NCBI RefSeq assembly: GCF_000243255.1
Contig: NZ_CM001436.1
Span: 1,276,077 to 1,340,076, forward strand
Direction of reading: 5' to 3'
Source: Methanoplanus limicola DSM 2279
Lineage (GTDB): Archaea; Halobacteriota; Methanomicrobia; Methanomicrobiales; Methanomicrobiaceae
DNA length: 64,000 nt
Positions within the stretch are counted from its first letter, which is position 1, and each line of letters begins with the position of its first letter. Positions 16,767 to 34,978 of the stretch are shown here, in pieces. The notes beneath the pieces were generated by a model. The model had not been told where the DNA came from. It saw nothing but the letters and a program-made list of their open reading frames with translations, and ran no database searches. Both the position numbers and the translations under genes were made by a program.

Positions 16767-17930
16767 ATGAAATATATTCTAATCCTCGGGGACGGAATGG
16801 CAGATGAACCCCTTGAGGAACTTGGCGGAAAAACCCCCCTTGAATCTGCAAAAACCCCGAATATGGACCGAATTGCAAGAGAAGGCAGATGCGGCATGCT
16901 CAAAACCGTACCTGAAGGCTACGAACCGGGTAGTGACATAGCAAACCTCTCCGTTCTCGGTTACAGGCCTGAGGAGTGCTACACAGGCAGAGGCCCCCTT
17001 GAAGCGATAAGCATGGGAGTGGACCTCGGAGAGAATGACATCGCCTACAGATGCAATCTCGTAACCATCAGAGACGGAATTATGGAGGACTTCTCAGCCG
17101 GACATATCTCCGGTGAAGAAGGAAAAGAGCTTATCGAATCCTTAAACGAAAAAATCCGGGAAGCAAAAGGCTATCCCGGAGTTAGCTACAGAAACCTCCT
17201 TGTTGTACCGGGCGGAGAAGGGTGCAGCACAACCCCGCCGCATGACATAGTGGACCGGGAGATTGCATCATACCTCCCAAAAGGCGGGGACAGCGAAGTG
17301 CTTCTCAGGTGCATGGAGGAGAGCAGAGAGGTATTTAAGGAACACCTGGTAAATGCCGAACGGCTGAAAGCCGGAAAAAGGCCTGCAACATCCATATGGC
17401 CATGGAGCGGAGGTAAGAAACCTGCAATGGAGAATTTTGAGGATAAGTTCGGCTTTAGGGGTGCAATGATCTCGGCAGTTGACCTCCTCAAAGGCATAGC
17501 CCTCTGCGCAGGGATGGACACAATTGAAGTGCCGGGTGCTACAGGATATCTCGATACCGACTATATGGCAAAGGCAGAATATGCAGTCTCCGCACTCAGA
17601 GATTATGACTTCGTATATCTCCATATCGAGGCACCTGATGAAGCCGGACATCTCGGCAGCACTGAAGAGAAGATAAAGGCAATCGAGAGTGTCGATGAGG
17701 TCACAGGCTATATACTTGATAATACAGAAGATACCATCATTGCAGTCCTTCCTGACCATCCGACACCAATCAGGATTAAGACGCATACCTCAGAACCTGT
17801 ACCCTTCGCAGTACTCGGCAGGGGGAATGACGATGCGGAATGCTACAGTGAGAGAGAGATTGCAGAGAAAGGCGGATTCGGACTGAGGAGATCTGAAGAT
17901 CTGATGAAGATAATTTTCGGGGAGATCTGA
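16767..17930 (+). CDS. apgM: Cofactor-independent phosphoglycerate mutase, archaeal type
   Basis: Interconverts 3- and 2-phosphoglycerate in glycolysis and gluconeogenesis. The 387-aa size matches archaeal ApgM. ILGDGMADEPLEELGGKTPL at the N-terminus holds the metal-binding Asp, SDIANLSVLGY carries the family nucleophile Ser, and HIEAPDEAGHLG (about 291-302) and LPDHPTP supply the second metal-binding set. It belongs to the alkaline phosphatase superfamily. It follows the epimerase gene closely and is the last chromosomal protein gene before the integrated element. Confidence 0.96.
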   Translation: MKYILILGDGMADEPLEELGGKTPLESAKTPNMDRIAREGRCGMLKTVPEGYEPGSDIANLSVLGYRPEECYTGRGPLEAISMGVDLGENDIAYRCNLVTIRDGIMEDFSAGHISGEEGKELIESLNEKIREAKGYPGVSYRNLLVVPGGEGCSTTPPHDIVDREIASYLPKGGDSEVLLRCMEESREVFKEHLVNAERLKAGKRPATSIWPWSGGKKPAMENFEDKFGFRGAMISAVDLLKGIALCAGMDTIEVPGATGYLDTDYMAKAEYAVSALRDYDFVYLHIEAPDEAGHLGSTEEKIKAIESVDEVTGYILDNTEDTIIAVLPDHPTPIRIKTHTSEPVPFAVLGRGNDDAECYSEREIAEKGGFGLRRSEDLMKIIFGEI

Positions 17931-18048: not shown

Positions 18049-18122
18049 ACCGGCATCAGATCCCTGCTTCTTCATACGGAGAAAATCTCCGTCAGTGGGG
18101 GTAACTTTCATCATCTGCCGAT
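18049..18122 (-). ncRNA. C/D box guide sRNA whose 5' end is the attachment site
   Basis: Read on the minus strand the parts occur in order. Box C is ATGATGA (18108-18114), followed by a 12-nt guide (18096-18107, AAGTTACCCCCA). Box D' is CTGA (18092-18095), then a 6-7 bp hairpin (18076-18092) acts as spacer. A slightly degenerate box C' is ATGAAGA (18069-18075), then a 9-nt guide (18060-18068) and box D CTGA (18056-18059). The ends pair: CGGCA with TGCCG plus a G-U and an A-U pair give a 7-bp terminal stem. This matches archaeal C/D sRNAs that guide 2'-O-methylation. The D' guide would target UGGGGGUAACUU, possibly 23S rRNA. The 20-bp attachment repeat covers the stem, box C and 7 guide bases. 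Confidence 0.72.
18101..18120. repeat. Left attachment site (attL), 20-bp direct repeat
   Basis: GTAACTTTCATCATCTGCCG occurs here and again at 35271-35290 in the same orientation. Flanking bases differ on both sides (G versus A before, A versus G after), so the identity is exactly 20 bp. It lies 46 bp before the integrase ATG and forms the 5' part of a C/D box sRNA on the minus strand. Confidence 0.9.
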
Positions 18123-18135
18123 ATTACCAGCAGAT

Positions 18136-18147
18136 ACTATATATTTT
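18136..18147. promoter_or_regulatory. TATA element shared by integrase and sRNA
   Basis: TATATATTTT-type DNA (18136-18147) is centred about 26 bp before the integrase ATG at 18167, which would make that mRNA leaderless. On the other strand it is centred about 20-25 bp before the sRNA 5' end. One AT-rich element could serve both directions. It lies inside the element. Confidence 0.5.
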
Positions 18148-18166
18148 CTTAAACCTATTTTACTGT

Positions 18167-19360
18167 ATGCCATATGCAGAGATCAATATCAAATCATATC
18201 TGACAGGCCAGGCCACAGACGGCCACATCTGTCCGGACGATGCCGATCTTATCCAGGAGTTTATTGAAGAGCGCAAGGCAACCTGCGGCCTTGCGGATTC
18301 AACCAGTATAGCTACGGCAAAAGCAATATGTAAATTTGTAGCCATAACAACAGAAAGAGGAGAACAGATATTGTCTCCGCTCAGAGATTGCAAGACATCC
18401 GATGTGTATCAGGCTCTGAATGTAGTCAGCAAAATATGGAAACAGAACACCCGGCGGCTGAGAGTGCACTATCTGAAAATATTCCTGCTGTGGCTAATCG
18501 AAGAAGGCCAGAACCCTAATTTAGATCCCAAAAAAATAGAATCAATAAAAACACCAAAAGCTGACAAGGCTACAAAAACAGCGTCTCAGATGATTTCTCC
18601 GGAAGATATGAACCGGATGATCATGGGGTGTAAAAACTCCCGCGACCGCGCAATGATCTCACTGATGTACGAGGGTGCACTAAGACCAATTGAAATACGT
18701 GAGGCCACCTGGTCACAGGTAAAATTTGATGAATATGGCGCGGTATTCACAACCTCAAAAAAGACAGGGAAACCCAGGTACATCAGGATCATTACATACG
18801 CTCATTACCTGGCACAATGGCAGGCAGATTATTTCAGAGGAAACCCGGACGAGAATATGCCGATCTTTATTACCCGGCGCGGCAACATTTTGTCCCGGCA
18901 ATATTTTGATGAGATTATATCCAAGGCAGCAGAGGCAGCAGGGATTGAAAAAATATTCCCATATATTTTACGACACAGCAGGATTACAAATATGAATGCT
19001 GACGGTATTCCGGAAAGCGTGATTAAACTTCAGGCATGGGGGAGCCTCAGTACTCCGATGATGGCTACATACTGTCATCTCAGCAATGACCAGTTAGATT
19101 CAATTCTCCTGGAGAAAAATGGTGTTGTCAAAAAAGCAGGCCGGCCAAAAGGCCCGACAATAAAACCCGTACAGTGCCCTTCATGCAGCACCATAAACGT
19201 ACCGGGTGCAAGGTTGTGTCACCAGTGCGGATCTCCTCTTACCGATGATGCCCGACATTCCCTGATTTCGCTCAAAGATAAGATAAAAGAAAACGATGGA
19301 ATATCAGAAGAGATGTTTACACGGATGCTGTTGAAGGCAAAAGAGAAAGGGATTATCTGA
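18167..19360 (+). CDS. Tyrosine integrase with C-terminal zinc ribbon
   Basis: Site-specific recombinase expected to integrate and excise the element. The 397-aa protein starts at MPYAEINIKSYL; the upstream frame runs through the attachment site and is unlikely. An N-terminal SAM-like core-binding domain (about 20-130) precedes the catalytic domain. This has Arg in EGALRPIEIRE (about 175), Lys in SKKTGKPRYI, the H-x-x-R box in LRHSRITN (about 268-275), Trp in AWGSLS in the His/Trp position, and the Tyr nucleophile in MMATYCHLS. The C-terminus adds a zinc ribbon (CPSC, CHQC), common in archaeal integrases and probably used for DNA contact. A hairpin terminator follows. Confidence 0.95.
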   Translation: MPYAEINIKSYLTGQATDGHICPDDADLIQEFIEERKATCGLADSTSIATAKAICKFVAITTERGEQILSPLRDCKTSDVYQALNVVSKIWKQNTRRLRVHYLKIFLLWLIEEGQNPNLDPKKIESIKTPKADKATKTASQMISPEDMNRMIMGCKNSRDRAMISLMYEGALRPIEIREATWSQVKFDEYGAVFTTSKKTGKPRYIRIITYAHYLAQWQADYFRGNPDENMPIFITRRGNILSRQYFDEIISKAAEAAGIEKIFPYILRHSRITNMNADGIPESVIKLQAWGSLSTPMMATYCHLSNDQLDSILLEKNGVVKKAGRPKGPTIKPVQCPSCSTINVPGARLCHQCGSPLTDDARHSLISLKDKIKENDGISEEMFTRMLLKAKEKGII

Positions 19361-19946
19361 CTTCCAGAATCGGAGGCAGGATAAATGAGGTTCTCGAAAT
19401 GGGGATTTTAATCCCCAATAGTTTTTTAGTGGCTGAATACAAGTATGAATGCTAAGATTTTTGCAATGTCAAGAATTACTGAAATTACATTGTCTAAGCA
19501 TACATCAATTGATAAACGAATTGACATCCCTGTTTTACCTCCTTTTGTGGATTTTTTATTTGCCTTCTACAGGGCTTCCACGCCCCTCCGGCAATAAAGT
19601 TTTAAGACTACCCCTATATAAAAGAAAGTCAGGACTTCAGGTTCGTTCAGTAATTTTATTAACTATTACCACATAAGAAATATTGTCAACTCGTAAAGAT
19701 GTTGCGTCATTCAAATCTCTGTGGCTGAATGTTACATTGATTGAATTGATGTTTTGTATCTTCTTGAGGTGGATTTTTTGCTTTGGGACCCTTCCACTTT
19801 AGGTCTCAAAGATTTTCCTTAACTCAAACAATTTGAGATAATATTATTATAATTCCAAGTTACAATATGTAACTGTGCCGCCAAAATTCAAAACAGTCCG
19901 GGAAAGGTAGATTAAATACGGATGATATCTTACTATCATATACTGA
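19361..19946. other. 586-bp gap after the integrase
   Basis: After the terminator, no frame looks like a real protein; a 75-codon frame at 19449-19676 lacks a ribosome-binding site and family-like sequence. Two small palindromes lie near the right end: CTCAAA/TTTGAG (19823-19837) and AGTTAC/GTAACT (19858-19874). TTAAATAC (19912-19919), about 30 bp before the next start, is the likely TATA box, so the second palindrome could be an operator just upstream. Confidence 0.35.
19400..19427 (+). terminator. Hairpin plus T-tract terminator of the integrase gene
   Basis: TGGGGATT (19400-19407) pairs perfectly with AATCCCCA (19410-19417) and is followed by a six-T run, 40 bp after the integrase stop. 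Confidence 0.75.
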
Positions 19947-20168
19947 ATGTCTATGATATCAGAGTTCCTGCCAGAATACCATGAATGTTTCTTATGTTGT
20001 TCAATTGGGGTATCTGCCTTTTTATTTGGATATATTTCTAATATTTTAGTGCTTCTGATTACAGGGTTAATATTAACCTCTTTAGGTTCATATACTGAAA
20101 CCATTAAAACCTTAAATTCACTTGGTGATTATTTTGAAAGCAGAGAGAAAAATTCCGGGAAGACCTAA
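19947..20168 (+). CDS. Small two-helix membrane protein
   Basis: A 73-aa protein of unknown function with two hydrophobic segments (about 15-35 and 36-55), ending in a polar tail. Its second helix and the following GSYTETIKTLNSL resemble the same region of the next protein (GVTTETIYRTMEYY), which suggests a duplicated gene pair. No ribosome-binding site is seen; a TATA-like element about 30 bp upstream suggests a leaderless mRNA. Confidence 0.5.
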   Translation: MSMISEFLPEYHECFLCCSIGVSAFLFGYISNILVLLITGLILTSLGSYTETIKTLNSLGDYFESREKNSGKT

Positions 20169-20340
20169 TTACCTTAAATCATTTATCCTGACAATCACAG
20201 GCATTTTAGTTACTGCTCTTGGGATTGGGGCAAATTCACTGGCAATTGCAATTTTTGGGACTATTGTCCTTGTTATGGGAGTTACGACAGAAACAATCTA
20301 CAGGACTATGGAGTATTACCTTTGCAATACCACACAATAA
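20134..20340 (+). CDS. Small two-helix membrane protein, paralogue of the preceding one
   Basis: I place the start at the TTG at 20134, five bases after GGTGA, giving 68 aa and a 35-bp overlap with the gene before; an upstream TTG at 20122 is possible. Two hydrophobic helices (about 15-35 and 36-55) are followed by TETIYRTMEYYL. Its 3' end overlaps the converging gene at 20306-20560 by 35 bp. Function is unknown; small paired membrane proteins in archaeal viruses may act in lysis, immunity or virion membranes. Confidence 0.5.
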   Translation: MKAERKIPGRPNYLKSFILTITGILVTALGIGANSLAIAIFGTIVLVMGVTTETIYRTMEYYLCNTTQ

Positions 20341-20560
20341 CACCAAGAATGGCAAAACCAATAATTGAACCTATAATACCTTCAGATAAGAAGGGAATTC
20401 CCTGGATGATCCCAATAAACCAGATTATGGAGTTCAAAAGAGTTTGAAGCCCATTTAACGCCAAACTGAATCCAAGAAGAGTGAATAAACCGGCAAAACC
20501 TGAAATTATTGGATGTTTAATACATTTATCAGCAAGATTATAAAAGAAGCGTGCTATCAT
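20306..20560 (-). CDS. Small membrane protein, function unknown
   Basis: 84 aa with two or three hydrophobic segments (about 18-35, 38-55, 62-80), the last ending in WYCKGNTP. Not recognised. Last of four consecutive minus-strand genes (21,627 to 20,306); its ATG lies two bases after the stop of the gene before, so translation is coupled. The convergent overlap with the plus-strand gene is unusual but short. Confidence 0.55.
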   Translation of the reverse strand: MIARFFYNLADKCIKHPIISGFAGLFTLLGFSLALNGLQTLLNSIIWFIGIIQGIPFLSEGIIGSIIGFAILGVIVWYCKGNTP

Positions 20561-20562
20561 AA

Positions 20563-20733
20563 TTAAAAACCATTCTTTCCTTTCCCTCTATCATAAAACC
20601 CAGAAACCTTCTCCGGATTGTTCCGGTAATATTCCTTTGTCTCTTTCTCAAAAGATTTCAGCCAGTTTTCCGTATCATTTCCACTTTCTAAAGCCTGAGC
20701 TTTATCTTTAAATTTCCCCAGTATTCCCCACAT
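20563..20733 (-). CDS. 56-aa charged protein
   Basis: This short frame starts MWGILGKFKDKAQALESG and ends YDRGKGKNGF. It is hydrophilic and helical with many Lys, Glu and Asn residues, and has no membrane segment. It is supported by tight packing between two minus-strand genes and by codon use like theirs. Function unknown. Confidence 0.55.
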   Translation of the reverse strand: MWGILGKFKDKAQALESGNDTENWLKSFEKETKEYYRNNPEKVSGFYDRGKGKNGF

Positions 20734-20768
20734 TTTAAAATCCCCATAAAATCAATAATTTGTCAGTA

Positions 20769-21251
20769 TTACCTTTTCATGAATGGCGTGATAATTATCC
20801 CCAGCAGTCCAACGATAGCAACAACACTCCCAATAATTTTCATAAATGCGTATTGTGCATATTCACTATTGTACATATGGAGAAGAGAATGCATCAACTG
20901 GTATTTGCTGCTCATATAATCTCCATAAATGTAGATGGCTACACCAATGATAAGAAATGTAACACTTACCAATATTCCTGCAATTGGAGAGCCTGATTTT
21001 TGCTCACCAGACTTAGAAGAATTATCTTTCTTTATTACTTCAGGCCTGGTTACTGGTCTCTCATAATAATCATCCTCATCCCCTTTTGTAAAATGAAGTA
21101 TGGCTGCTATAATCAGCCCTGCTATGAACACTACAAAAAATATATACCCTACGAAAAATATTCCATTATTTTTGGTAATTGCTCCAAAAAAGAACATTAA
21201 GATACTGACGAATAATGACCCCAATATTATCAATTTACTACTATCTTCCAT
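20769..21251 (-). CDS. 160-aa membrane protein, four predicted helices
   Basis: Hydrophobic segments lie at about 7-25, 30-52, 88-110 and 135-155, with a charged cytoplasmic-type loop (DEDDYYERPVTRPEVIKKDN) between the second and third. Not recognised. It follows the RHH regulator gene on the minus strand (about 67 bp gap) and precedes two more small genes; together they look like one transcript running opposite to the large operon. Confidence 0.6.
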   Translation of the reverse strand: MEDSSKLIILGSLFVSILMFFFGAITKNNGIFFVGYIFFVVFIAGLIIAAILHFTKGDEDDYYERPVTRPEVIKKDNSSKSGEQKSGSPIAGILVSVTFLIIGVAIYIYGDYMSSKYQLMHSLLHMYNSEYAQYAFMKIIGSVVAIVGLLGIIITPFMKR

Positions 21252-21318
21252 TTACGCACCCCATCAAAAAAGTAAGTTTTTATTTTCCTTTAACCTCAAA
21301 CCCTGCCGCGCCTCCACT

Positions 21319-21627
21319 CTATTCATCCGGCTCAGGCATAACTGAAAGAATCAGTTTCTTAATTTCAGCAATCTCATTTTTCATCTCAACCATACCGCGC
21401 TCACACTCTGCAAGCCTTTGTGCTTCTTCTTCGGTCATAGGTTGAGAAGTTAAATTTGATTCATTCTCTAAATTATCCAAATGTTCCCTGATAATTTCTA
21501 AGATGAGTCTATTTTTAGATAATTTCCTTTTTGCCCTTAAATTCTCTAATTTATCATAAAGTGGAATATCATCTTCCTCCACAAAGTAAACTGAAATTTT
21601 TGGAGGGTTTGCACTTTTCTTAGCCAT
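21319..21627 (-). CDS. Ribbon-helix-helix-like regulator with coiled-coil tail
   Basis: About 102 aa from the ATG at 21627 (a longer frame starts at 21648). PPKISVYFVEEDDIPLYDKL followed by RKLSKNRLILEIIREHLDNL has the strand-helix-helix pattern of RHH/CopG repressors. The C-terminal half (MTEEEAQRLAECERGMVEMK) should form a coiled coil. A TATA-like CATATAATAAA on the minus strand near 21653-21663 fits a near-leaderless start at 21627. It diverges from another small RHH-like gene across a large palindrome, the layout of a viral regulatory switch. DNA binding is inferred from pattern only. Confidence 0.6.
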   Translation of the reverse strand: MAKKSANPPKISVYFVEEDDIPLYDKLENLRAKRKLSKNRLILEIIREHLDNLENESNLTSQPMTEEEAQRLAECERGMVEMKNEIAEIKKLILSVMPEPDE

Positions 21628-21680
21628 CTTAGAATTAAACATTATCATTCATTTATTATATGTATTCATGACTCACACAT

Positions 21681-21716
21681 GCTCATGAGGAGTTAAATTT
21701 ATAACTCATGGTGAGC
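21681..21716. promoter_or_regulatory. 36-bp imperfect palindrome in the divergent promoter
   Basis: GCTCA (21681-21685) mirrors TGAGC (21712-21716), and GAGTTA mirrors TAACTC around the AT-rich centre AATTTA. The centre contains the TATA-like element (about 21692-21703) that lies 26 bp before the ATG at 21728, so a bound dimer would block the start of the long operon. Extra CTCA/TGAG half sites lie nearby. Confidence 0.6.
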
Positions 21717-21727
21717 AATTAATCTCT

Positions 21728-21922
21728 ATGGCAGAAGATGTTACTAAGAAATGTCGCCTGCAGGTAATGATCGTAAGCGATAGAGAACCTGCATTGATGA
21801 ATGCAATTCAGAATTTAAGAAAGAGGTACACAGATGCAGAACTTCTTAAAGAAGGTCTCCGATGCCTTGCCAAACGTGAAGGACTTTTGACCATTGCAAA
21901 TTCAGAGGAGGCAACAGCATGA
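21728..21922 (+). CDS. Small RHH-like protein, first gene of the long operon
   Basis: 64 aa. KCRLQVMIVSDREPALMNAI followed by KRYTDAELLKEGLRCLAKRE has a strand then two helices, compatible with a ribbon-helix-helix DNA-binding protein, though short and unproven. The start sits about 26 bp after a TATA-like element within the palindrome, so the message is probably leaderless. The stop overlaps the next ATG (ATGA). Confidence 0.55.
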   Translation: MAEDVTKKCRLQVMIVSDREPALMNAIQNLRKRYTDAELLKEGLRCLAKREGLLTIANSEEATA

Positions 21923-21978
21923 GAACAGTAACCGAAAACCGAACCACCACGAACGAATTAAAAAGAGGCCAATTATGA
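21919..21978 (+). CDS. Possible 19-codon leader-type frame
   Basis: ATGA overlap with the gene before and an overlap with the ATG at 21975 bracket a frame of 19 codons. It contains RTTTNEL, a peptide that recurs near the start of the 86-aa protein at 22710 because the DNA itself is repeated. It could be a coupling peptide or the remnant of a decayed gene. Weak evidence. Confidence 0.25.
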   Translation: MRTVTENRTTTNELKRGQL

Positions 21979-22136
21979 CTGCAAATATTGTAATGAGAGA
22001 AGATGAGTATGCTGCGCTGATGAAAGACCCAATAGCCAAAGAGTATGTTATAATAGGTCTTGAAATTGGCGAGATTGAAGTGATTGACAGCAACGGTAAA
22101 AAAGTCAATGTAAACACTGCCGAGGCAACAGCATGA
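21975..22136 (+). CDS. 53-aa protein, function unknown
   Basis: Starts MTANIVMREDEYAALMKDP, with GAGG 6-9 bases upstream; the frame is open further upstream but that segment overlaps the preceding frame. Acidic, with a mixed helix/strand pattern and no membrane segment. It ends TAEATA, and the 16 bp over its stop (GAGGCAACAGCATGAG) are identical to those over the stop of the gene at 21728. Confidence 0.5.
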   Translation: MTANIVMREDEYAALMKDPIAKEYVIIGLEIGEIEVIDSNGKKVNVNTAEATA

Positions 22137-22354
22137 GTGAATCAAAAAAAGAGTTTAAGGGATCTGTCCTGAATTGCGATAAACTCGGTTTCATTGCAGG
22201 TTTAGGAACAGGGTTTTTAACATTCGCTCTTGTAACCTGGATAAATCCTGACCAGTTGAATGATATTATTTCTGTAGGTCTTGTACTTGGTATTTTCTTA
22301 ATGGTTTTTGGAGTATTTCTTAATAGAAAAGGAAATTCAGGTGATGAGGCATGA
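22133..22354 (+). CDS. Small two-helix membrane protein
   Basis: 73 aa with hydrophobic segments at about 18-36 (LGFIAGLGTGFLTFALV) and 45-64 (ISVGLVLGIFLMVFGVFL), and charged ends. ATGA overlaps on both sides show translational coupling. Function unknown. Confidence 0.6.
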   Translation: MSESKKEFKGSVLNCDKLGFIAGLGTGFLTFALVTWINPDQLNDIISVGLVLGIFLMVFGVFLNRKGNSGDEA

Positions 22355-22713
22355 AAAAGATACTTGCCGGAAATTCGATCCAGAAGCAGCTTCAGACATT
22401 CATTGAGGAACTGAAGGGTGCTTTTGAGAAGATACAGGAGGAATGCAATAAACAGGACCAGAAGATCTCAGAACTGTCAGCCCTGGTTGAAAAGCAGGGG
22501 CAGGAGATAGAGGTTCAGAGCAGACTTCTCCATACGGCATTTGAAAGAATAACAGGCCTGGAGGACAATGTAAAAGAGCTGAAAGAAGATTCTGAATTAT
22601 TTGAAAGATATGCCAGGACTGCGATTGAAAACACAAAGTATCAGGTCAGGAAACTTGACGTACAGAACATACTGAATGAAAGTAAACAAGAGGAAAAGAG
22701 CGTGATTTTATGA
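22351..22713 (+). CDS. Coiled-coil protein
   Basis: 120 aa, almost entirely helical, with a heptad pattern across QLQTFIEELKGAFEKIQEE and SELSALVEKQGQEIEVQSRL. No membrane segment or enzyme motif. Coupled to neighbours by ATGA overlaps. It could be a scaffold or a regulator; function unknown. Confidence 0.6.
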   Translation: MKKILAGNSIQKQLQTFIEELKGAFEKIQEECNKQDQKISELSALVEKQGQEIEVQSRLLHTAFERITGLEDNVKELKEDSELFERYARTAIENTKYQVRKLDVQNILNESKQEEKSVIL

Positions 22714-22970
22714 TAATAAATCATAATGGCGAACCCCGACTAAAACGAACCACCACGAACGAGTTATTTGAGGCCGCCAGAAATAAATTTGATTTCTCAG
22801 GCAATATAAATTGCCCATCTGACAGTGAGCAGACAGACAGCAGCATTATTGATGCTGAAGATTATGATAGTTTCCCTCCGGAATTTCAGGAGAATTCACT
22901 TTTTACCAGGGCAATTCTAAACCGCCCGGACAATGAAGATTCATTAAGGGGGATTGGTTTGAATGCTTAA
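22710..22970 (+). CDS. 86-aa acidic protein, function unknown
   Basis: Contains RTTTNELFEAARNKFDFSG near the N-terminus, whose DNA is a near copy (20 of 21 bases) of 21940-21960. The remainder is acidic and Asp/Ser-rich, and looks disordered. It overlaps both neighbours by 4-8 bp. Confidence 0.5.
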   Translation: MIINHNGEPRLKRTTTNELFEAARNKFDFSGNINCPSDSEQTDSSIIDAEDYDSFPPEFQENSLFTRAILNRPDNEDSLRGIGLNA

Positions 22971-23325
22971 TTGCCTTACTTTCATTAAATATCACAGATC
23001 TAACACCCCATCAAGTGTTGTAATCAGCAAAAATCATGTTGAAGGTTTCTATACCTCACTAAATTGTATTGGGATTAGATCACCTTTTGGAAGTGAAATA
23101 TTTTGGTATGATGAAAATATCACAAAAGTAAGTTATATAGACAGATTACTGAAAATTCTGATTGACGAAATCCAAAAGTGGATTATAGCAGAATCTGAAG
23201 CACGAAGAGAACTAATAAATAATGACCATGATCATTTAGCGAGGAGCACTTCATATCTGAATATCTCTGAACTTGCAGAGGAATTGCATCAGAAGTTACT
23301 TGATGAGATAGGCGGTGATGCCTGA
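22963..23325 (+). CDS. 120-aa protein, function unknown
   Basis: Soluble. A strand-rich N-terminal half (SSVVISKNHVEGFYTSLN) is followed by helices (YIDRLLKILIDEIQKWIIAE) and a His/Asp-rich turn NNDHDHLAR. No family recognised. Its stop overlaps the next ATG, preceded by GGCGGTGATG, a ribosome-binding site inside the coding end that recurs in this operon. Confidence 0.5.
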   Translation: MLNCLTFIKYHRSNTPSSVVISKNHVEGFYTSLNCIGIRSPFGSEIFWYDENITKVSYIDRLLKILIDEIQKWIIAESEARRELINNDHDHLARSTSYLNISELAEELHQKLLDEIGGDA

Positions 23326-23588
23326 TGCACGGTTCTGTCTTCCTCCTTAACTACCTGAATAAACTCTGTGAGAATTCCGGACTTGAAACAATTTCCGGAA
23401 GGCTTCTGAAATTAGACAGGATTGTCAGTAATCATCAGTGCCGGAGAGCAGCCCGATATCAGAGAAAGGCCTTCAGCAGATCTTTTCGGGGGAGCTGCCG
23501 GGAAAAGAAACTGGCTTTCTGGATGTGGGATCATGCTATCAATTCCCCTCCTCCCCAGCTGAAAACTATTCTGAAAGGAGGGATCTGA
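23325..23588 (+). CDS. 87-aa protein, reading frame uncertain in its second half
   Basis: The N-terminal half (MHGSVFLLNYLNKLCENSGL) looks normal. The second half becomes very Arg-rich, while the +2 frame over the same DNA (from about 23438) reads as an ordinary acidic protein running into the next gene's frame. Either this is a small basic protein or an ancient frameshift split a longer one. The next gene has its own strong ribosome-binding site (AAGGAGGGA), so I end the feature here. Confidence 0.4.
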   Translation: MHGSVFLLNYLNKLCENSGLETISGRLLKLDRIVSNHQCRRAARYQRKAFSRSFRGSCREKKLAFWMWDHAINSPPPQLKTILKGGI

Positions 23589-23590
23589 GA

Positions 23591-23917
23591 ATGGCTTTTG
23601 ATGTTACAATCTTCACCGGAAAAGACGGTAAGGAAGGTATCAGAACCTTTCAGAACGTCCACCTTTTAATCCCTCAGTGGAATGGGGATTCCGAAGAGGT
23701 ACCACAACAGAAGTGGATTACCCTTCTTGAAAAATCCGGAGATATGACAACTCTGAATTTCCGCTCCTGGTCTGTTACTGAGAAGATGCCGGATAAGGTA
23801 AAGGTCCGGAAAAGAGACGGGAAAGTCATTGATGACGGTTACAGAGTGACCGGGGACTTTGACAGGATGACGATTTACCGCCGGAATTCCGGGAAGAAAT
23901 CAGGCGGTGATGAGTGA
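23591..23917 (+). CDS. 108-aa protein, beta-rich, function unknown
   Basis: The start ATG at 23591 is seven bases after AAGGAGGGA, the best ribosome-binding site in this operon. The sequence (FDVTIFTGKDGKEGIRTFQN, KWITLLEKSGDMTTLNFRSW) suggests a beta-strand-rich fold with a charged end. No family recognised. Confidence 0.55.
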   Translation: MAFDVTIFTGKDGKEGIRTFQNVHLLIPQWNGDSEEVPQQKWITLLEKSGDMTTLNFRSWSVTEKMPDKVKVRKRDGKVIDDGYRVTGDFDRMTIYRRNSGKKSGGDE

Positions 23918-24072
23918 TGCTGCTCTTCATCTTAGCACTTGGTTTTCTGGCTGTTCTCAGTGCGTCACTATTTCTCTGGGGATATCATGAAGGGAAATCA
24001 GCCGGAATCAGGCAGTACAGGAAGGAATGTTCTGAATGTGCCTTATCTCATGGGAGGCAGCAGCATGATTGA
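23917..24072 (+). CDS. 51-aa single-helix membrane protein
   Basis: Starts MLLFILALGFLAVLSASLFL, one membrane helix (about 2-21), then a polar tail with CSECA, a possible metal-binding or lipid-facing Cys pair. ATG overlaps the preceding stop by one base. Topology would put the Cys tail in the cytoplasm. Function unknown. Confidence 0.5.
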   Translation: MLLFILALGFLAVLSASLFLWGYHEGKSAGIRQYRKECSECALSHGRQQHD

Positions 24073-24292
24073 AAGTATTCAGCCGGATGCACCCTGGAGA
24101 AGTATTCTGCATAAGCTTTCGGATACTCAGGTTATTTGTGATGCTGTAGGAATAATTCCCTGTATTGAGGTTTTTGTTCATAAATGCCTGATAGGATGTC
24201 GTAAATATGACAATGGGGAATGTGAAGGCTGCATTTTCCAGACTTGCGAGAATAAGCATCTTATTCTGATCAGGGAGGCTGATGCCCTATGA
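24065..24292 (+). CDS. 75-aa cysteine-rich protein
   Basis: Starts MIESIQPDAPWRSIL after GGGAGG; the frame is open upstream but overlaps the membrane peptide gene. Six Cys residues in the C-terminal half (CLIGCRKYDNGECEGCIFQT, then C) could bind zinc or an iron-sulfur cluster. Overlaps the next gene by ATGA. Confidence 0.5.
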   Translation: MIESIQPDAPWRSILHKLSDTQVICDAVGIIPCIEVFVHKCLIGCRKYDNGECEGCIFQTCENKHLILIREADAL

Positions 24293-24564
24293 CAGAAATC
24301 ATTCCTGTAACCTGTCCCTTCTGTTATGATGGAGGCCTGGAGAACTTAGAGAATCTCATTGTCATTGTTCAGGGCTGGCCGGTCATGGGGTGGCGGTGCA
24401 GCTGCTGCAGGAAGAGCTTCTCTATACTTCATCCGCATGTTCAGGCAGTCATCAGAAAAACCCTGAATGAAGAATTCCGGAAGAGAAGAGTCAGGAAGAA
24501 CAGAAAGGTATCTTATCATATTCTTAAAGGTGAAGGGAATGTCGGCCTTGGGGTGATGGCATAA
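24289..24564 (+). CDS. Zinc-ribbon protein
   Basis: 91 aa. CPFC (about 9-12) and CSCC (about 38-41) form two zinc knuckles about 25 residues apart. The basic region EEFRKRRVRKNRKV downstream suggests nucleic-acid binding. Zinc-ribbon mini-proteins are common in archaeal viruses. Confidence 0.6.
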   Translation: MTEIIPVTCPFCYDGGLENLENLIVIVQGWPVMGWRCSCCRKSFSILHPHVQAVIRKTLNEEFRKRRVRKNRKVSYHILKGEGNVGLGVMA

Positions 24565-24812
24565 TGCCGGCATCACTGTTCAGAAAGTCATCTTACAGGA
24601 TATATGTCATTTTGAAGGATGATGATGGTAATCTGACAGAATATCCAGTCAGGTTAAGCTGTAGGATTTCCAGTAGTCATGAAAAAATTTTAGAGACAAT
24701 ATCAGTTCTGGAAAGACTGTTTGAAGATTCTGAAAATTTTGTAAGAGTTAAAACGGTGAAATACTATCCACCTGTTGATGTTCAGGTTGCTTTAGCTGAG
24801 GTGTCAGAATGA
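24564..24812 (+). CDS. 82-aa protein, function unknown
   Basis: Soluble, with RIYVILKDDDGNLTEYPVRL as a beta hairpin-like start and a helix over EKILETISVLERLFED. ATGA-type overlaps on both sides. Not recognised. Confidence 0.45.
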   Translation: MPASLFRKSSYRIYVILKDDDGNLTEYPVRLSCRISSSHEKILETISVLERLFEDSENFVRVKTVKYYPPVDVQVALAEVSE

Positions 24813-25144
24813 AGCCCATTCTGGCCAATTTTTTTTCAAAAGTACAGACTGCTGTCAGAAGGTACTATACAAAAACCTGTATGCCGGAGAAGGTGCGACC
24901 TGACAGAATCCCTGAATCTTTGGATAAAATCAAAAAATCACGTCAAAAAGACGTTTATTTTACAAATCACGCAAAAAAGTATCAAGGTATTCTACGACTT
25001 AAAGATATATATTATTTACCTCAGAATTTCTGGTTCTTCGGACCAGGGGGTCTTTCCTGTAAGGTCAAAAAGTACAGACTGCTGTCAGATGTCAGTGCCT
25101 TGTTAGAGTATTCTTCCAGGTCTTCTAATGGAGGTGTTCTCTGA
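24809..25144 (+). CDS. 111-aa basic protein, function unknown
   Basis: Very basic N-terminal half (KVQTAVRRYYTKT, KKSRQKDVYFTNHAKKYQG). A perfect 22-bp direct repeat (24838-24859 and 25068-25089) lies within it, read in two different frames, so the gene may have been altered by a repeat-mediated insertion. AT content near 24,920-25,020 is higher than around it. It still starts and ends with ATGA-type overlaps. Confidence 0.4.
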   Translation: MKPILANFFSKVQTAVRRYYTKTCMPEKVRPDRIPESLDKIKKSRQKDVYFTNHAKKYQGILRLKDIYYLPQNFWFFGPGGLSCKVKKYRLLSDVSALLEYSSRSSNGGVL

Positions 25145-25620
25145 TGGATTCTGAAAGGTTTAAAACAGCAGTTTATCTCAGACCAGATCAGGCTATCATT
25201 CAACAGTTATATCCTCAGAAGTTCTCTCAGCTGGTCAGATATCTGGCTGATGCTCTCATAATGGGTACTGAACTTGGAGAACTACCTCCGGAAATTGCTG
25301 AAGAGGTTGTTTATGTCCGGAGATCCTCTCAGATGAGACAGGAATATCTGAAGAAAAAGAATCAGCTGAAGGAAGATTTCTTCTCATTTCTTGATAATCA
25401 GAACTATCCTATCTTTCTGGCCAGATACAGCAAGAGGAAAGCCAAAAAGATAGGAAAAGAGCTTGCAGGAAAATACAGGGCAGGCGGGAATATCTTACCG
25501 GAATCTTATGTTCTCCCCTTCCTGAATGAATATCTGGAACACGCTGAATACTCCGGGAAGATGCTGCATGCCTGGACTCCCATACAAGAGAACCTTTTCA
25601 GAGAGGAGGGAAGGACATGA
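25144..25620 (+). CDS. 158-aa helical protein, function unknown
   Basis: The N-terminus (FKTAVYLRPDQAIIQQLYPQ) followed by FSQLVRYLADALIMGTELG resembles a small strand-helix-helix unit. The rest is helical and charged (KRKAKKIGKELAGKYRAGG). No membrane segment. Coupled to the HNH nuclease gene that follows by a 4-bp overlap. Confidence 0.5.
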   Translation: MDSERFKTAVYLRPDQAIIQQLYPQKFSQLVRYLADALIMGTELGELPPEIAEEVVYVRRSSQMRQEYLKKKNQLKEDFFSFLDNQNYPIFLARYSKRKAKKIGKELAGKYRAGGNILPESYVLPFLNEYLEHAEYSGKMLHAWTPIQENLFREEGRT

Positions 25621-26147
25621 AATTCATTCCCTGCCACAACTGCGGAAAGGAAATTCCGGAAAACATGAAATGGAAGGATCATGCTGGTCATACATATTGC
25701 AGCAAGGAATGCAAGTGGGAAGGTATCTATACATGGGATTGCTCCCGGAAGGGTGAACGACCCAGAGTTCCGGGGTCGTGGGACTGGGTAATCAACCAGG
25801 TCTTTAAGAGAGATAATTACTGCTGCCGGTTATGCGGGAAAACCCATAAAGATCTTTACTGGGAAAAGAATTCTGAGAGTGTCGCACCTGAGAGAATAAA
25901 AAATATTCTGAAATGTAATCCTTCAGTTTTCCATTATCTCTTTGAATTTCATCATAATCTTCCGATTGCTATAGGTGGAAATTCCCTTCCGGAAAATGTT
26001 ATTACACTTTGTCATGACTGTCATGTCCTGGTGCATTCAAGCTTAAGGAAAAAATCAGATCAGGAACCGGGAATTTCAGATTCTTCAGAACTCCATCAGA
26101 CTTCCCTGATAAGATTCATGGATGCAGTGATTCAGGAGAGGTGCTGA
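25617..26147 (+). CDS. HNH endonuclease with N-terminal zinc finger
   Basis: 176 aa. The N-terminus binds zinc with CHNCGKE and CSKECKW (about 5-8 and 27-31). The HNH core follows: FKRDNYCCRLCGK (first Cys pair), FEFHHNLPIAIGG (HH, catalytic His), Asn in NVITLCHDCHVLVH with the second Cys pair and final His. Such enzymes nick or cut DNA. In viruses they serve packaging or replication, or act as homing nucleases; this one has no intron or intein context, so a replication or packaging role is inference. Confidence 0.85.
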   Translation: MKFIPCHNCGKEIPENMKWKDHAGHTYCSKECKWEGIYTWDCSRKGERPRVPGSWDWVINQVFKRDNYCCRLCGKTHKDLYWEKNSESVAPERIKNILKCNPSVFHYLFEFHHNLPIAIGGNSLPENVITLCHDCHVLVHSSLRKKSDQEPGISDSSELHQTSLIRFMDAVIQERC

Positions 26148-26148
26148 T

Positions 26149-26430
26149 ATGGCCACTATCAACATATCAAAAGCCTATGCTGACCTGGAGAAAGCTAAAA
26201 AACCGGAGACAAAGGCCGCAATAAAGCGATACATCAACCAGGCAAGAAAATTCCGGTTTGAATACGGCTATGAGCTTGAGAAATGGCCGAGGGATATTTT
26301 ACGGCAGCTGATGCACACCGCAGCAGCTGCTTATGATCTCATTAAGGATGAGGAACAGGACCGGAAAGCCTTTGAGAGAATTCAGAAGGCTGCGGCTAAT
26401 GAAGGAATTTCATTGGCGGATTTTATGTGA
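26149..26430 (+). CDS. 93-aa helical protein
   Basis: All-helical and charged (AYADLEKAKKPETKAAIKRY, RKAFERIQKAAANEGISLAD). It starts one base after the HNH stop, so it may work with the nuclease, for example as a small-terminase-like partner; that is speculation. No motif recognised. Confidence 0.5.
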   Translation: MATINISKAYADLEKAKKPETKAAIKRYINQARKFRFEYGYELEKWPRDILRQLMHTAAAAYDLIKDEEQDRKAFERIQKAAANEGISLADFM

Positions 26431-26450
26431 ATTTTAAAGAGGTGAATTTT

Positions 26451-26648
26451 ATGATAACAGATGGAAATGAAACAATAACAATCAACAAATATGAAATGTA
26501 TCTGCTCAAAAAGGCACTTACCCGGTTCCGAGACCTTGCCGACTCGCTGGACTGTGTATGTGATCCAGAGTATGGATATGAATGTCCTATCCACGAGGAC
26601 CGGAGGTTAGCCAGGACAGCTTTAGAGATCCTGGAGGGTGATGCTTGA
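26451..26648 (+). CDS. 65-aa protein, function unknown
   Basis: I choose ATG 26451 because AGAGGTGA lies 7-8 bases upstream; a GTG at 26427 is in frame. Contains CVCDPEYGYECPIHEDRR, a Cys-Cys-Cys-His group that could bind zinc, after a helix (EMYLLKKALTRFRDLADSL). Stop overlaps the next ATG. Confidence 0.5.
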   Translation: MITDGNETITINKYEMYLLKKALTRFRDLADSLDCVCDPEYGYECPIHEDRRLARTALEILEGDA

Positions 26649-27118
26649 TGTCGGAAGAATGGCTTTGTCCGATATGTGGGAGGCTGAATCTATCAGGGTC
26701 CGGACCTATGGGTACAGCACCAATCTGTCATAGTTGTAAGTTCTCCTGGGGATACATCCGGGAACTGGAAGATCTCAGACGGCAGTTGGACTCATACCGG
26801 GACGATGAACTATATATTTCCAGACGGGTTGTAAATATCCAGGATGAAATCTCATCTATAAAAGTAGCAATCAACCTTAAGCCTGAAATTAAGGCCGATT
26901 TTGATGATGTTCTACTCAGTCTGGAAAAAGAAGAATCTGACGCTCTTGCAGATGCTGAAAAGAATGAAGCAGCCATTCAGAGTATTCGTAAGGAAATTCA
27001 TAAATTGGCAGAGATTGACGCTAAGATTGAAGCTGCTCCTTTAGTGGAAAAGCCTGATGTTTTTCCCCGGAATCATCATCCGGATTTTGGGCAATCATCC
27101 CTGGGGGCATATCTATGA
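26648..27118 (+). CDS. Zinc-ribbon plus coiled-coil protein
   Basis: 156 aa. CPICGR (about 7-12) and CHSCKF (about 27-32) form a zinc ribbon. A long charged coiled coil follows (about 40-130, including LLSLEKEESDALADAEKNEA). The end is Pro/His-rich. A DNA- or RNA-binding structural role is plausible. Confidence 0.55.
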   Translation: MSEEWLCPICGRLNLSGSGPMGTAPICHSCKFSWGYIRELEDLRRQLDSYRDDELYISRRVVNIQDEISSIKVAINLKPEIKADFDDVLLSLEKEESDALADAEKNEAAIQSIRKEIHKLAEIDAKIEAAPLVEKPDVFPRNHHPDFGQSSLGAYL

Positions 27119-27333
27119 ATCAGGATCTCGGCGGCCTTGCTGCACTGACTCAGGCAATTGTCAATATGACAATTGTCATGGAAGGGATTAACTCACAATT
27201 GTATCTTCTCCGGGAAGAGATGGTCCGGAACAGAATGAACCAGGAAGATATCATTGACAATGATGTTACCTTCAAAACTCTTGTAGCGGATGAAATATCT
27301 CACATTTTACATGGTGAGTGTGATGTCAGATAA
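27115..27333 (+). CDS. 72-aa helical protein
   Basis: Two amphipathic helices (LAALTQAIVNMTIVMEGINS and QLYLLREEMVRNRMNQED), then an acidic end. It overlaps the next gene by 11 bp; GGTGAG within its 3' end serves as that gene's ribosome-binding site. Not recognised. Confidence 0.5.
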   Translation: MNQDLGGLAALTQAIVNMTIVMEGINSQLYLLREEMVRNRMNQEDIIDNDVTFKTLVADEISHILHGECDVR

Positions 27334-27673
27334 CAACATCAACGAGAAGGGGTCTGTATTGGCAGATCTCCCTTCACCCCGTACTAAACATCCTCTGAAA
27401 ATATCAGAATCAATCGACAGATGCCGAAAACTTAAGAGTAAGTTTCATCCCGTCAAAACCCCGGCGGTCATCCTCGGAATGTCAGGTGCAGCACTGGTGG
27501 CAGTTCCGGCAGCAGCTGCACACTTGGCAGGGTTCACCTGCTGGATTATTGCTAATGGTCTTTGGGTCTGGCATGGGACAAAAGTTAAGGACTTTTACAT
27601 TATGCTGCTATTTGTGTTTTATCTGGTAACGGCTTTCATGGGGATCATGGGTCTGCTGCCGGAGGTGATCTAA
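27323..27673 (+). CDS. 116-aa membrane protein
   Basis: ATG 27323 follows GGTGAG; an upstream in-frame ATG at 27290 is less likely. A soluble N-terminal third is followed by hydrophobic segments at about 48-65 (VILGMSGAALVAVPAAAAHL), 68-80 and 90-112 (FYIMLLFVFYLVTAFMGIMG). Function unknown. Confidence 0.55.
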   Translation: MSDNNINEKGSVLADLPSPRTKHPLKISESIDRCRKLKSKFHPVKTPAVILGMSGAALVAVPAAAAHLAGFTCWIIANGLWVWHGTKVKDFYIMLLFVFYLVTAFMGIMGLLPEVI

Positions 27674-27674
27674 A

Positions 27675-27878
27675 ATGCAGGTAAAAACTAATTTTTATGA
27701 AGGGATTCCCTCCGGTTGGTTAAAAAAAGGATGCTACTGTAAAGAATGCAATGCCTATTATACATATAGGCAATGGGATAATCTCAAAACGGAGTTAGTT
27801 TATCCTGATACAAATTTGCAAGCAGTGAATACAATTTGCTCTAACTGTGGTAATCATCTTTGGTGGGTTAGAGGATAA
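27675..27878 (+). CDS. Zinc-ribbon mini-protein, last gene of the operon
   Basis: 67 aa with CYCKEC (about 20-25) and CSNCGNH (about 55-61), a rubredoxin-like zinc ribbon. The AT-rich coding sequence differs from the neighbouring genes. Overlaps end here; the second recombinase has its own promoter. Confidence 0.55.
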   Translation: MQVKTNFYEGIPSGWLKKGCYCKECNAYYTYRQWDNLKTELVYPDTNLQAVNTICSNCGNHLWWVRG

Positions 27879-27975
27879 CTCCTCTTCTTTCTCCGTTGCC
27901 GATAACCTGCAATTATGGCACTTTTTTAAAATATCAACATAATTTCTTTATAAGCAAAAGCCTAACATTACCGAC

Positions 27976-28548
27976 ATGGAACACAAGTCGGCAATCAGTT
28001 ACGGCGGCCTGCATACTGTCATTACTTCCGGAGAGCAGGCACTTACCAGGCAGGAGTATGATGCAGTCCTTGCAGCCTGCGAATGCCAGGAAGATCGGGT
28101 GCTCATAATGCTTGGAGTCTCCCTCGGCCTGAGAAGAGCTGACCTGGTATCAATCAAAATATCTGATATTGATCTCAACTCAGCAACTATGTCATATGCA
28201 GAAAAGAAGAAAGGCAGCCGGATAAGAACAGTTCCAATATCTCCGAAACTTCTCCAGGAGATCAAAATACTTCTAAAAACAATCCCAAAGAAACAAAAAA
28301 CACTCTTCAGCTTCAAAGAACGGCAGGCATACAACCGCTTTCAAAAATTATGTAATCGTGCCGGAGTCCCCGGAAGACCCATCCACGCACTCCGGGCAAC
28401 ATGCGTAAAGTTTTGCCAGGCTGCCGGCTGGACTCCTGAACAGGTCTCCAGGCTTACCGGAGATACAATCCGGGTGATCCAGCTGCATTATGCAACCCCT
28501 TCAGCCGGAGAAATGGCGGATGTAGTAAAGGACAGAGAAATACTTTGA
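27976..28548 (+). CDS. Short tyrosine recombinase, catalytic domain only
   Basis: 190 aa, with no separate N-terminal core-binding domain. Catalytic Arg in SLGLRRADLVS, Lys in AEKKKGSRIRT, the H-x-x-R box in HALRATCVK (about 136-144), and Tyr in IQLHYATPS (about 175). The usual GH before the Tyr motif is replaced by GD (LTGDTIRV), so the His/Trp position is missing. TTTATAAG about 26 bp before the ATG indicates a leaderless mRNA. It could be a resolvase, an inversion enzyme, or the original integrase of an inner virus-like module. Confidence 0.85.
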   Translation: MEHKSAISYGGLHTVITSGEQALTRQEYDAVLAACECQEDRVLIMLGVSLGLRRADLVSIKISDIDLNSATMSYAEKKKGSRIRTVPISPKLLQEIKILLKTIPKKQKTLFSFKERQAYNRFQKLCNRAGVPGRPIHALRATCVKFCQAAGWTPEQVSRLTGDTIRVIQLHYATPSAGEMADVVKDREIL

Positions 28549-28554
28549 CATTTT

Positions 28555-28800
28555 TTAGATTAAATCATGCACCTGCAACCACACGGCCAGGCCTTTATTG
28601 ATATCATCCGAAAGTGCACCACCGAAGGATCCATTATTCTTCCTGGGCTGATTTTTTTCATAATGCTCCAGAAGCTCAACATCAATATACACAGTCAGCT
28701 TCTTTCTGGAATGACTTTGCCGATATAAGGATCTCCTGAATACTCTCCCTATCAGACTGTCATTTGTTAATTCTACCTTTCCAAGGTTCAGTTCCGGCAT
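28555..28800 (-). CDS. CopG-type ribbon-helix-helix regulator
   Basis: 81 aa. RKKLTVYIDVELLEHYEKNQ is the strand-then-helix start of an RHH protein; the second helix follows GALSDDINKGLAVWLQVHDL. It is transcribed away from the virion cassette, with an inverted repeat over the shared promoter region, so it probably controls that cassette and itself. Confidence 0.65.
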   Translation of the reverse strand: MPELNLGKVELTNDSLIGRVFRRSLYRQSHSRKKLTVYIDVELLEHYEKNQPRKNNGSFGGALSDDINKGLAVWLQVHDLI

Positions 28801-28819
28801 GGGTGGTTCGCTTTCTTTT

Positions 28820-28928
28820 TTACTTTCTATGTATGTAAGTAATAAAAAAGGTCGTCCTCTCGGCGTAGTGTTTGAGACCTATATTATAACCCCTGACCTA
28901 TACTGCCAATAACGAGGTGAAAACTCCG
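28820..28928. promoter_or_regulatory. Divergent promoter of RHH gene and virion cassette
   Basis: TTACTT (28820-28825) and AAGTAA (28837-28842) form an inverted repeat about 26 bp upstream of the RHH start, a likely operator. CTATATTAT (about 28879-28887) is the TATA box for the cassette, and GAGGTGA (28914-28920) is the strong ribosome-binding site of its first gene. Confidence 0.5.
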
Positions 28929-29090
28929 ATGGCAATCAACCTTACTCCAATCGCAGAGATCCTTGATGGGGTCGTCTCATTCGTACCAAATCTTGTGGAT
29001 CTTGTGGTCAATCTAATCCCGCTCAGTATCGCAATTGCAATCTCGGCATTTATCGGTGGCATCTTTGCCGCGATTCTCGCAAAGTTCTGA
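28929..29090 (+). CDS. 53-aa hydrophobic protein, candidate major coat protein
   Basis: The frame starts MAINLTPIAEILDGVVSFVP and ends GGIFAAILAKF. An amphipathic first half with two Asp and one Glu leads into a long membrane-spanning helix (about 26-50) with a Lys at the very end. Size, charge layout (acidic front, hydrophobic middle, basic end) and position at the head of the cassette fit a mature filamentous-virus major coat protein; no signal peptide is evident. The ribosome-binding site GAGGTGA is eight bases upstream. The role is inferred from these features and the neighbours. A pleomorphic-virus membrane protein is the main alternative. Confidence 0.6.
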   Translation: MAINLTPIAEILDGVVSFVPNLVDLVVNLIPLSIAIAISAFIGGIFAAILAKF

Positions 29091-29101
29091 GGTGTGAAAA
29101 G

Positions 29102-29467
29102 ATGAAAATTTCAACTTTTCCAATCCTCCTTTTAGTAGCCTTCTTTTCAGTTCTCATCCTCGCAGCTGTTCCGGCATCAGCAGAGGAAGACACAAGGATA
29201 TCAGTTCAGTTTCAGGACCTCGGCCTTACTACTCAGGACATAACAGTCTTTGATTCTTCCGGGGATGACATCATCCACAGCAACACCAGTTCTGTTGTCC
29301 GGCTTGACTACAACGAATCTACATTTTTCACAGTGCAGCTTCAGCCTGGAGCAGTAAACATTCAGCCGGAAACGATGTACCAGAAATTTCTGAATTTCGT
29401 CCTGAATAACTGGATTGCCGTATTTCTGATTCTTGTCGTGATATTCATGCTGGCGAAGAAACGCTAA
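29102..29467 (+). CDS. Secreted, C-terminally anchored small protein
   Basis: 121 aa: signal peptide (about 1-27, ending PASAEED), an ectodomain of about 65 residues rich in Ser, Thr and Asp, then a membrane helix (about 98-117) ending AKKR. The topology matches minor virion proteins exposed outside and anchored by the C-terminus. GAGGTG precedes the ATG. Not recognised by family. Confidence 0.6.
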   Translation: MKISTFPILLLVAFFSVLILAAVPASAEEDTRISVQFQDLGLTTQDITVFDSSGDDIIHSNTSSVVRLDYNESTFFTVQLQPGAVNIQPETMYQKFLNFVLNNWIAVFLILVVIFMLAKKR

Positions 29468-29495
29468 GTTCTGGCAGAAGGTGAGGTGATTAGAA

Positions 29496-29840
29496 ATGAA
29501 TGAATTAACTAAACCAAAAACGGAAAACAATGAAAAAAATGAGATTCTGAAAGATATTTCAAATATCATTAAAAGTGACAGGAAAAAAGAGAAAAAAAAG
29601 AGTAACCAGAGTTTTGAATATATCGTTGGTGCTTTCTCATTGATATTTGGAATTATCTTCCTAGTATTCTTCACAATGCACTGCACTGTAGGTAATCTTT
29701 TCCTTGCCATTCAGGATGGCATACTGGGGATTTTTTTCTTCCTTGTAGGTACAGGAATATCTCTCAAACTTCAGATAAGGAAATCAGAAAAAAGATTAGA
29801 AAAGAAAATCCGGAAGCTGCTAAAGGAGGCCACCCCATGA
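29496..29840 (+). CDS. Small membrane protein with charged ends
   Basis: 114 aa: a highly charged N-terminus (DRKKEKKKS), two membrane helices (about 43-65 and 69-90), and a basic C-terminal coiled segment (RKSEKRLEKKIRKLLKE). GAGGTGA precedes the ATG, and ATGA couples it to the spike-like gene. Probably an assembly or minor virion membrane protein. Confidence 0.55.
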   Translation: MNELTKPKTENNEKNEILKDISNIIKSDRKKEKKKSNQSFEYIVGAFSLIFGIIFLVFFTMHCTVGNLFLAIQDGILGIFFFLVGTGISLKLQIRKSEKRLEKKIRKLLKEATP

Positions 29841-31342: not shown

Positions 31343-31355
31343 GGGAGGAATACAG

Positions 31356-32267: not shown

Positions 32268-32274
32268 GGTGAAT

Positions 32275-32421
32275 ATGTCAGCAAAACAATGGAAAACAGA
32301 ATACAGCTATTACGGAACCCGGATAGCAAAAGGCCTTGGAGCTTCCCCGGAGGAGGCAGACCAGGACGCAAGAAGACAGCTTGAAGACAAAAAGATTCTG
32401 AAAAAGAGGTGTAACAGATAA
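32275..32421 (+). CDS. 48-aa protein inside the cassette
   Basis: This short frame starts MSAKQWKTEYSYYGTRIAKG and ends LKKRCNR; it is charged, helical and soluble. GAGGTGA lies three bases before the ATG, and its TAATG stop overlaps the next start, so it is well supported despite its size. Function unknown. Confidence 0.6.
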   Translation: MSAKQWKTEYSYYGTRIAKGLGASPEEADQDARRQLEDKKILKKRCNR

Positions 32422-32966: not shown

Positions 32967-32970
32967 TCTT

Positions 32971-33855: not shown

Positions 33856-34055
33856 TGAATCTATCTTCTGCACTCTCTGCCTCCGCTCCGGGAACTGACT
33901 GCATACTTATCCCGGCAGGATCTTTCTTCTGTCCTTACTGGATGCTGGATCTTGCTATCATTCTGATATTCTGGCTTGGATTAATAATCGGTTTTGGAAG
34001 TGCTTTCGGATGGAAACAGTTGTATTTCAGGATAATGACGAAGATATTCTGTTAG
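33855..34055 (+). CDS. 66-aa membrane protein overlapping the ATPase gene
   Basis: One or two hydrophobic segments (about 22-50, YWMLDLAIILIFWLGLIIGF) with an aromatic-basic end. Its last 46 bp overlap the start of the ATPase gene in another frame. It may be the membrane anchor or partner of that ATPase. Confidence 0.5.
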   Translation: MNLSSALSASAPGTDCILIPAGSFFCPYWMLDLAIILIFWLGLIIGFGSAFGWKQLYFRIMTKIFC

Positions 34056-34975: not shown

Positions 34976-34978
34976 AAT

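Follow-up and report, generated by a model that had tools for sequence, protein, structure and literature searches.

Can an integrative element use the gene of a guide RNA as its landing site, and what becomes of that RNA afterwards? The question is raised by a locus of Methanoplanus limicola DSM 2279, lying in a 64,000-nucleotide stretch of DNA that was analysed as a whole (the window). A preliminary description, made from sequence alone, had proposed that an element has integrated there into a box C/D sRNA gene and rebuilt its 5′ end. Our main reading is that an integrase has driven insertion into a single-copy, conserved C/D sRNA gene with rebuilding of the 5′ end, which we consider very likely (probability about 0.92).

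A complete box C/D sRNA gene at attL

Read from 18122 to 18049 the minus strand gives ATCGGCA G ATGATGA AAGTTACCCCCA CTGA CGGAGATTTTCTCCGT ATGAAGA AGCAGGGAT CTGA TGCCGGT, with the following features:

18049..18122, minus strand: rebuilt box C/D sRNA gene at attL (71 bits, E 1.2e-17, covariance model R1)
18108..18114, minus strand: box C, ATGATGA (from the sequence; invariant or nearly so among relatives)
18096..18107, minus strand: D′ guide AAGTTACCCCCA, predicted guide for G1909 in helix 69 of 23S rRNA (E. coli numbering)
18092..18095, minus strand: box D′, CTGA (sequence and alignment of relatives)
18069..18075, minus strand: box C′, ATGAAGA, a variant of RTGATGA one change from the consensus
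18060..18068, minus strand: D guide AGCAGGGAT, forming 9 pairs (one G-U) with GTCCCTGCT of 16S rRNA
18056..18059, minus strand: box D, CTGA (sequence and alignment of relatives)

The C/D boxes, the stem and the repeat layout that the preliminary description had placed in this interval are all present, as confirmed by reading and by script. Boxes C, D′, C′ and D follow each other in order with short guides, as is expected of an archaeal box C/D sRNA; the C′ variant is common only to the window and the same-genus genome among the loci compared. A covariance search, also proposed in the preliminary description, was run with a model (R1) trained on 42 element-free native genes from which the same-genus sequence had been left out. 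The window gene scored 71.0 bits (E ~1e-17), practically as high as the intact same-genus gene (71.2 bits), and was the only strong match in the genome, where it is thus single copy. At gathering scores no Rfam family matched the sRNA, while weak sub-threshold matches to several C/D families spanned exactly 18049-18122. The core methylation proteins are encoded in the same genome, with genes for fibrillarin (8e-62) and Nop (4e-38). We conclude, without transcript data, that the interval holds a complete box C/D sRNA gene.

Conservation of the RNA

A search with ATGATGAAAGTTACCCCCACTGA, which represents the block from box C through the guide to D′, gave matches with up to three mismatches in 146 of the 199 genomes of the order, nearly always as a single copy. 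The reversed pattern, used as a control, had no match in the same 199 genomes. In the aligned relatives, including those without the element, the joined gene is conserved: AGTTACCCCC and box D (CTGA) are invariant, boxes C and C′ nearly so. The terminal stem shows a covariation of 0.314 compared with 0.129 for shuffled alignments, and none of 500 shuffles reached the observed value. Five of its eight pairs have changed on both sides, with 47 double-changed cells versus 20 in shuffles, and 84% of the cells are paired as opposed to 27-61% when the strands are slid against each other. A terminal stem adjoining boxes C and D, as in K-turn geometry, is therefore supported by covariation. Weaker homologues were found across the phylum. 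No match to the pattern was found in the examined members of genera g13, g20 and g35 and of family f2 of the order, where the sRNA may have been lost or may have diverged beyond detection.

One could argue that the attachment site mimics C/D boxes by chance and that no sRNA exists, and the lack of an Rfam family at gathering score would be in keeping with this. However, the order-wide conservation, the covariation, the model score and the phylum-wide homologues all but exclude such an explanation, and we rejected chance resemblance on the count of 146 of 199 genomes against zero for the reversed pattern.

The sRNA also has a characteristic neighbour. Of 101 fetched loci, among which a few contigs were fetched twice, 71 have it convergent with apgM and at most 600 bp away:

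16767..17930, plus strand: apgM (phosphoglycerate mutase), chromosomal gene convergent with the sRNA

Since apgM is both the usual neighbour of the sRNA and the left neighbour in the window, the gene occupies its native home.

Predicted targets of the guides

The D′ guide can form 10 contiguous Watson–Crick pairs with GGGGGUAACU of 23S rRNA; its target GGGGGTAACT lies in helix 69 and occurs once in the organism's own rRNA operon. Complementarity to 23S rRNA, which the preliminary description had named as a check, is thus borne out, although the 12-mer it had suggested, UGGGGGUAACUU, is itself absent from the rRNA. Applying the N+5 rule from D′ designates G1909 (E. coli numbering; the alignment takes U1911 as the U of GUAAC). 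In Haloarcula (H. marismortui) 23S rRNA the equivalent nucleotide has been measured as Gm1950 (=1909), and a C/D sRNA was predicted for it, with homologues in 25 archaeal genomes including Pyrococcus sR41 (Grosjean et al. 2008, PMC2584109). Guide complementarity with the N+5 position at a methylated nucleotide is consequently met on the strength of the H. marismortui datum. We predict that the D′ guide directs 2′-O-methylation of G1909; methylation in M. limicola itself is inferred.

The D guide would pair near E. coli positions 1379-1387 of 16S rRNA. Its GCAGGG is kept in 77 of 98 homologues. This target is less certain than that of the D′ guide, and the D-guide sequence is more variable.

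The integrated element and its attachment sites

The element and its ends are laid out as follows:

18101..18120, plus strand: attL core GTAACTTTCATCATCTGCCG, 20 bp
18121..35270, no strand: integrated element, 17.1 kb, missing from the corresponding region of same-genus genome G001
35271..35290, plus strand: attR core, an orphan sRNA 5′ end with stem strand, box C and 7 guide bases (16 bits)
18121..18166, no strand: divergent intergenic region of the element, 46 bp (sequence reading)
18167..19360, plus strand: tyrosine recombinase of 397 aa with a C-terminal zinc ribbon (Pfam Phage_integrase 2.5e-19), divergent from the sRNA
34010..34975, plus strand: P-loop ATPase, element cargo (weakly HerA/TrwB/terminase-like)

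Allowing up to three mismatches, GTAACTTTCATCATCTGCCG occurs exactly twice in the 3,200,946-bp genome. The core contributes most of the 5′ stem strand, box C and 7 of the 12 D′-guide bases. In G001 the sRNA gene is uninterrupted: the window flanks, which stop at 18120 and resume at 35292, map to neighbouring positions there (L065 9687/9689), and comparison with the 20-kb G001 stretch around the empty site turned up no part of the element. The locus has the direct-repeat attL and attR and the matching empty site expected of a site-specific integrative element. Three further points of the preliminary description hold. The left repeat does supply the terminal stem (most of its 5′ strand), box C and 7 of 12 guide bases; the stem retains 7 bp after integration versus 9 bp in the rejoined attB (−10.3 vs −17.3 kcal/mol); and attR keeps only an orphan 5′ part, scoring 16 bits as against 71. 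A tRNA target was rejected, the window being devoid of any tRNA.

In the integrase, R173, K199, R269, W291 and Y302 are invariant in five aligned sequences, with roles assigned by reading the alignment. This satisfies the catalytic signature of tyrosine recombinases, with Y266 at the position where H is usual. When attP is reconstructed, the core of the window element is bordered by inverted arm-like motifs (TAGTATCYGC and relatives) at 35246-35260 and 18127-18139, and that of the G053 element likewise (L088, about 17897-17907 and 5003-5015). The motifs could be integrase-binding sites. Inside the element, 27976-28548 encodes another tyrosine recombinase, a short one of 190 aa (Phage_integrase 3e-13). 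From 29102 to 33855 a run of secreted or membrane-like proteins without clear family matches precedes the P-loop ATPase, which itself had no match in the phage collection searched. The run possibly represents virion or transfer genes of an undescribed element.

The same gene is a recurrent target

The closest integrases in the order belong to Methanoregulaceae genomes and are 56-61% identical to that of the window (the next being 42%); each is 55-125 bp away from the sRNA, and the further loci with related integrases recovered from a scan of 84,980 species genomes likewise all adjoin it. Besides the window, seven occupied loci (L091-L097) are known, in at least seven other genomes; at L097 a contig end leaves just the N-terminus of the integrase, and L096, whose integrase is frameshifted near the N-terminus, is the same contig as L087. 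The sRNA-adjoining integrases form one clade with 100/100 support in a tree containing the window and six of the seven relatives. Among 25 more distant integrases a tRNA adjoins the integrase start in 15, by its 3′ end in 13 cases and by its 5′ end in two. These two, L041 and L047, adjoin tRNA-Arg (CCG) and tRNA-Thr (GGT); use of a 5′ end has likely arisen elsewhere in the order as well. A scan of the regions upstream of 15 more distant integrases found no other C/D genes, and IMG/VR contained no close relative of the window integrase.

Except for the integrase, comparison of the window element with what was fetched of the other elements detected no common protein. For just two elements are both ends on the contig; the second is that of G053, which measures 13 kb, has its own attL and attR and carries a different cargo including a terminase. 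A single sRNA-adjoining clade with otherwise different cargo points to a specialised integrase module carried by different elements. The tyrosine integrases of this lineage are thus specialised for the gene of a C/D guide RNA and are found on elements with different genes.

Traces of older events were also observed. In G168 (L142 2449-2819) a decayed, frameshifted integrase remnant lies beside an sRNA that keeps the element-type 5′ flank, which we regard as a fossil insertion. The element-free site of G151 (L143) has the element-type flank GTGCGCAA before box C, conceivably a scar of past integration and excision.

It might be objected that the true target is the intergenic DNA at the 3′ end of apgM and that the sRNA boxes merely happen to lie there. 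Every occupied locus does have the sRNA near apgM, so location and sRNA are partly confounded. On the other hand, the shared core consists of the 5′ stem, box C and guide of the sRNA itself, and does so in register at every occupied site; in the element copy, box C and the guide are unchanged and the stem matches the 3′ strand of the host; and the same RNA is conserved in relatives without apgM in the stretch. We therefore hold this alternative to be very improbable.

Rebuilding of the stem and inferred expression of the sRNA

At each occupied site the 5′ stem strand supplied by the element pairs with the 3′ strand of the host, and where the native flank is known (window and G053) the element strand differs from it. 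Summed over the sites, the actual element-host stems amount to −113 kcal/mol compared with −85 ± 7.5 for permuted combinations, and 3 of 20,000 permutations were as low. Relatedness among hosts and elements was not corrected for, so this result lends support without settling the matter. A bulge or small internal loop interrupts the stem in several or most Methanoregula element sites.

The fit of the stems could also have been inherited through recent common descent of attP and attB, without selection for RNA function. The Methanoregula elements and their hosts are related, and the GTGCGCAA flank of the elements is also present in native G151; the 5′ strands of the window and G053 elements, however, are unlike the native flank and still pair with the host 3′ strand. 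On balance we lean against inheritance, without being able to dismiss it.

Expression of the rebuilt sRNA is inferred from sequence alone. A TATA-like CTATATAT lies about 26 bp before the integrase ATG, a spacing that suggests a leaderless integrase mRNA. On the sRNA side a TATA-like TTTAAGAA is found about 25 bp upstream of the stem in the window and is not clearly conserved in other elements, and reading the sequence established no clear archaeal promoter on the element side. An A+T-rich, TATA-like stretch is present upstream of many native sRNA genes. Promoter use within the 46-bp region is inferred only.

This leaves room for the possibility that integration inactivates or rewires the sRNA, which in the absence of its native promoter would be silent or dependent on the element, as would helix-69 methylation. 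In its favour, the native upstream region is now 17 kb away, the integrase has a well-placed TATA-like box with none equally clear for the sRNA, and the attL stem is weaker than the native one. Against it, stem strand and box C are kept at all occupied sites, even beside the decayed G168 integrase, which suggests continued selection for function. We consider inactivation or rewiring unlikely.

A model for integration at the sRNA gene

According to the main reading, rebuilding by integrase-driven insertion, the 17-kb element's own tyrosine recombinase would insert it into the conserved box C/D sRNA gene beside apgM. Crossover would fall within the ~20-bp core (5′ stem strand, box C and first guide bases), a step shown by the two cores and the empty site. 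The gene at attL is thereby complete again, the element providing 5′ stem, box C and half of the guide and the chromosome D′, C′, D and the 3′ stem, with attR left as a dead 5′ stub. The rebuilt RNA is inferred to act with L7Ae, Nop5 and fibrillarin in 2′-O-methylation of G1909 in helix 69. Since the native promoter lies beyond attR, transcription of the sRNA would have to start in the 46-bp region shared with the integrase gene. Points against this reading are the lack of transcript data and of a clear element-side promoter, the shorter attL stem, the small number of complete elements and the less conserved D-guide target. A bolder version, in which the element takes over sRNA transcription through this shared divergent promoter region, seems improbable; if true, it would link helix-69 methylation to the state of the element (integrated, excised or induced).

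The guide sRNA gene is conserved, and a dedicated integrase lineage, whose cargo is interchangeable, uses it as a landing site. Some archaeal insertions classed as 'intergenic' may, by extension, lie in unannotated sRNA genes, and insertions that target sRNAs offer a handle for finding both elements and sRNAs. Occupied sites are also natural tests of the terminal stem and 5′ sequence needed by a C/D sRNA.

Comparison with known systems

The known Gm1909-guide sRNA (PMC2584109) agrees with the window sRNA in the kind of its boxes and in the nucleotide predicted as its target, and the two very likely share their function; it has been described solely as a guide RNA, and use as an integration site is absent from the relevant sections of that paper. 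Surveys of archaeal integration sites list tRNA genes, protein-coding genes and intergenic DNA (PMC8371274, PMC6563490), and in the open-access literature searched, subscription papers being outside its scope, we found no report of an sRNA gene in this role.

The closest parallel is provided by the pTN3-like elements (Cossu et al. 2017, reviewed in PMC8371274), whose attB falls within a tRNA gene, in its 5′ half. They share with the window element an attB in the first half of an RNA gene, the rebuilding of the 5′ end and the need that would follow for an element promoter; the target is a tRNA gene there and a methylation-guide sRNA gene here, so that the window site does not qualify as a tRNA attB. 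CalSub-E1 likewise rebuilds the 5′ end at a tRNA gene (PMC6563490). The tRNA/tmRNA genomic islands (Islander, PMC4383910) share with the window element a tyrosine integrase, a gene that is split and restored and a displaced fragment marking the far end, but they use another class of target gene and usually rebuild its 3′ end. The dusA-specific integrases, which target the 5′ end of dusA (PMC4482086), form a family that, like the window clade, is committed to a single conserved gene and its 5′ end; theirs is a bacterial protein-coding gene, unlike that of the window clade. The proposal of a new kind of safe-haven target is thus upheld in part: rebuilding of a 5′ end is known, whereas a C/D methylation-guide sRNA gene as the target of a whole integrase clade appears to be new.
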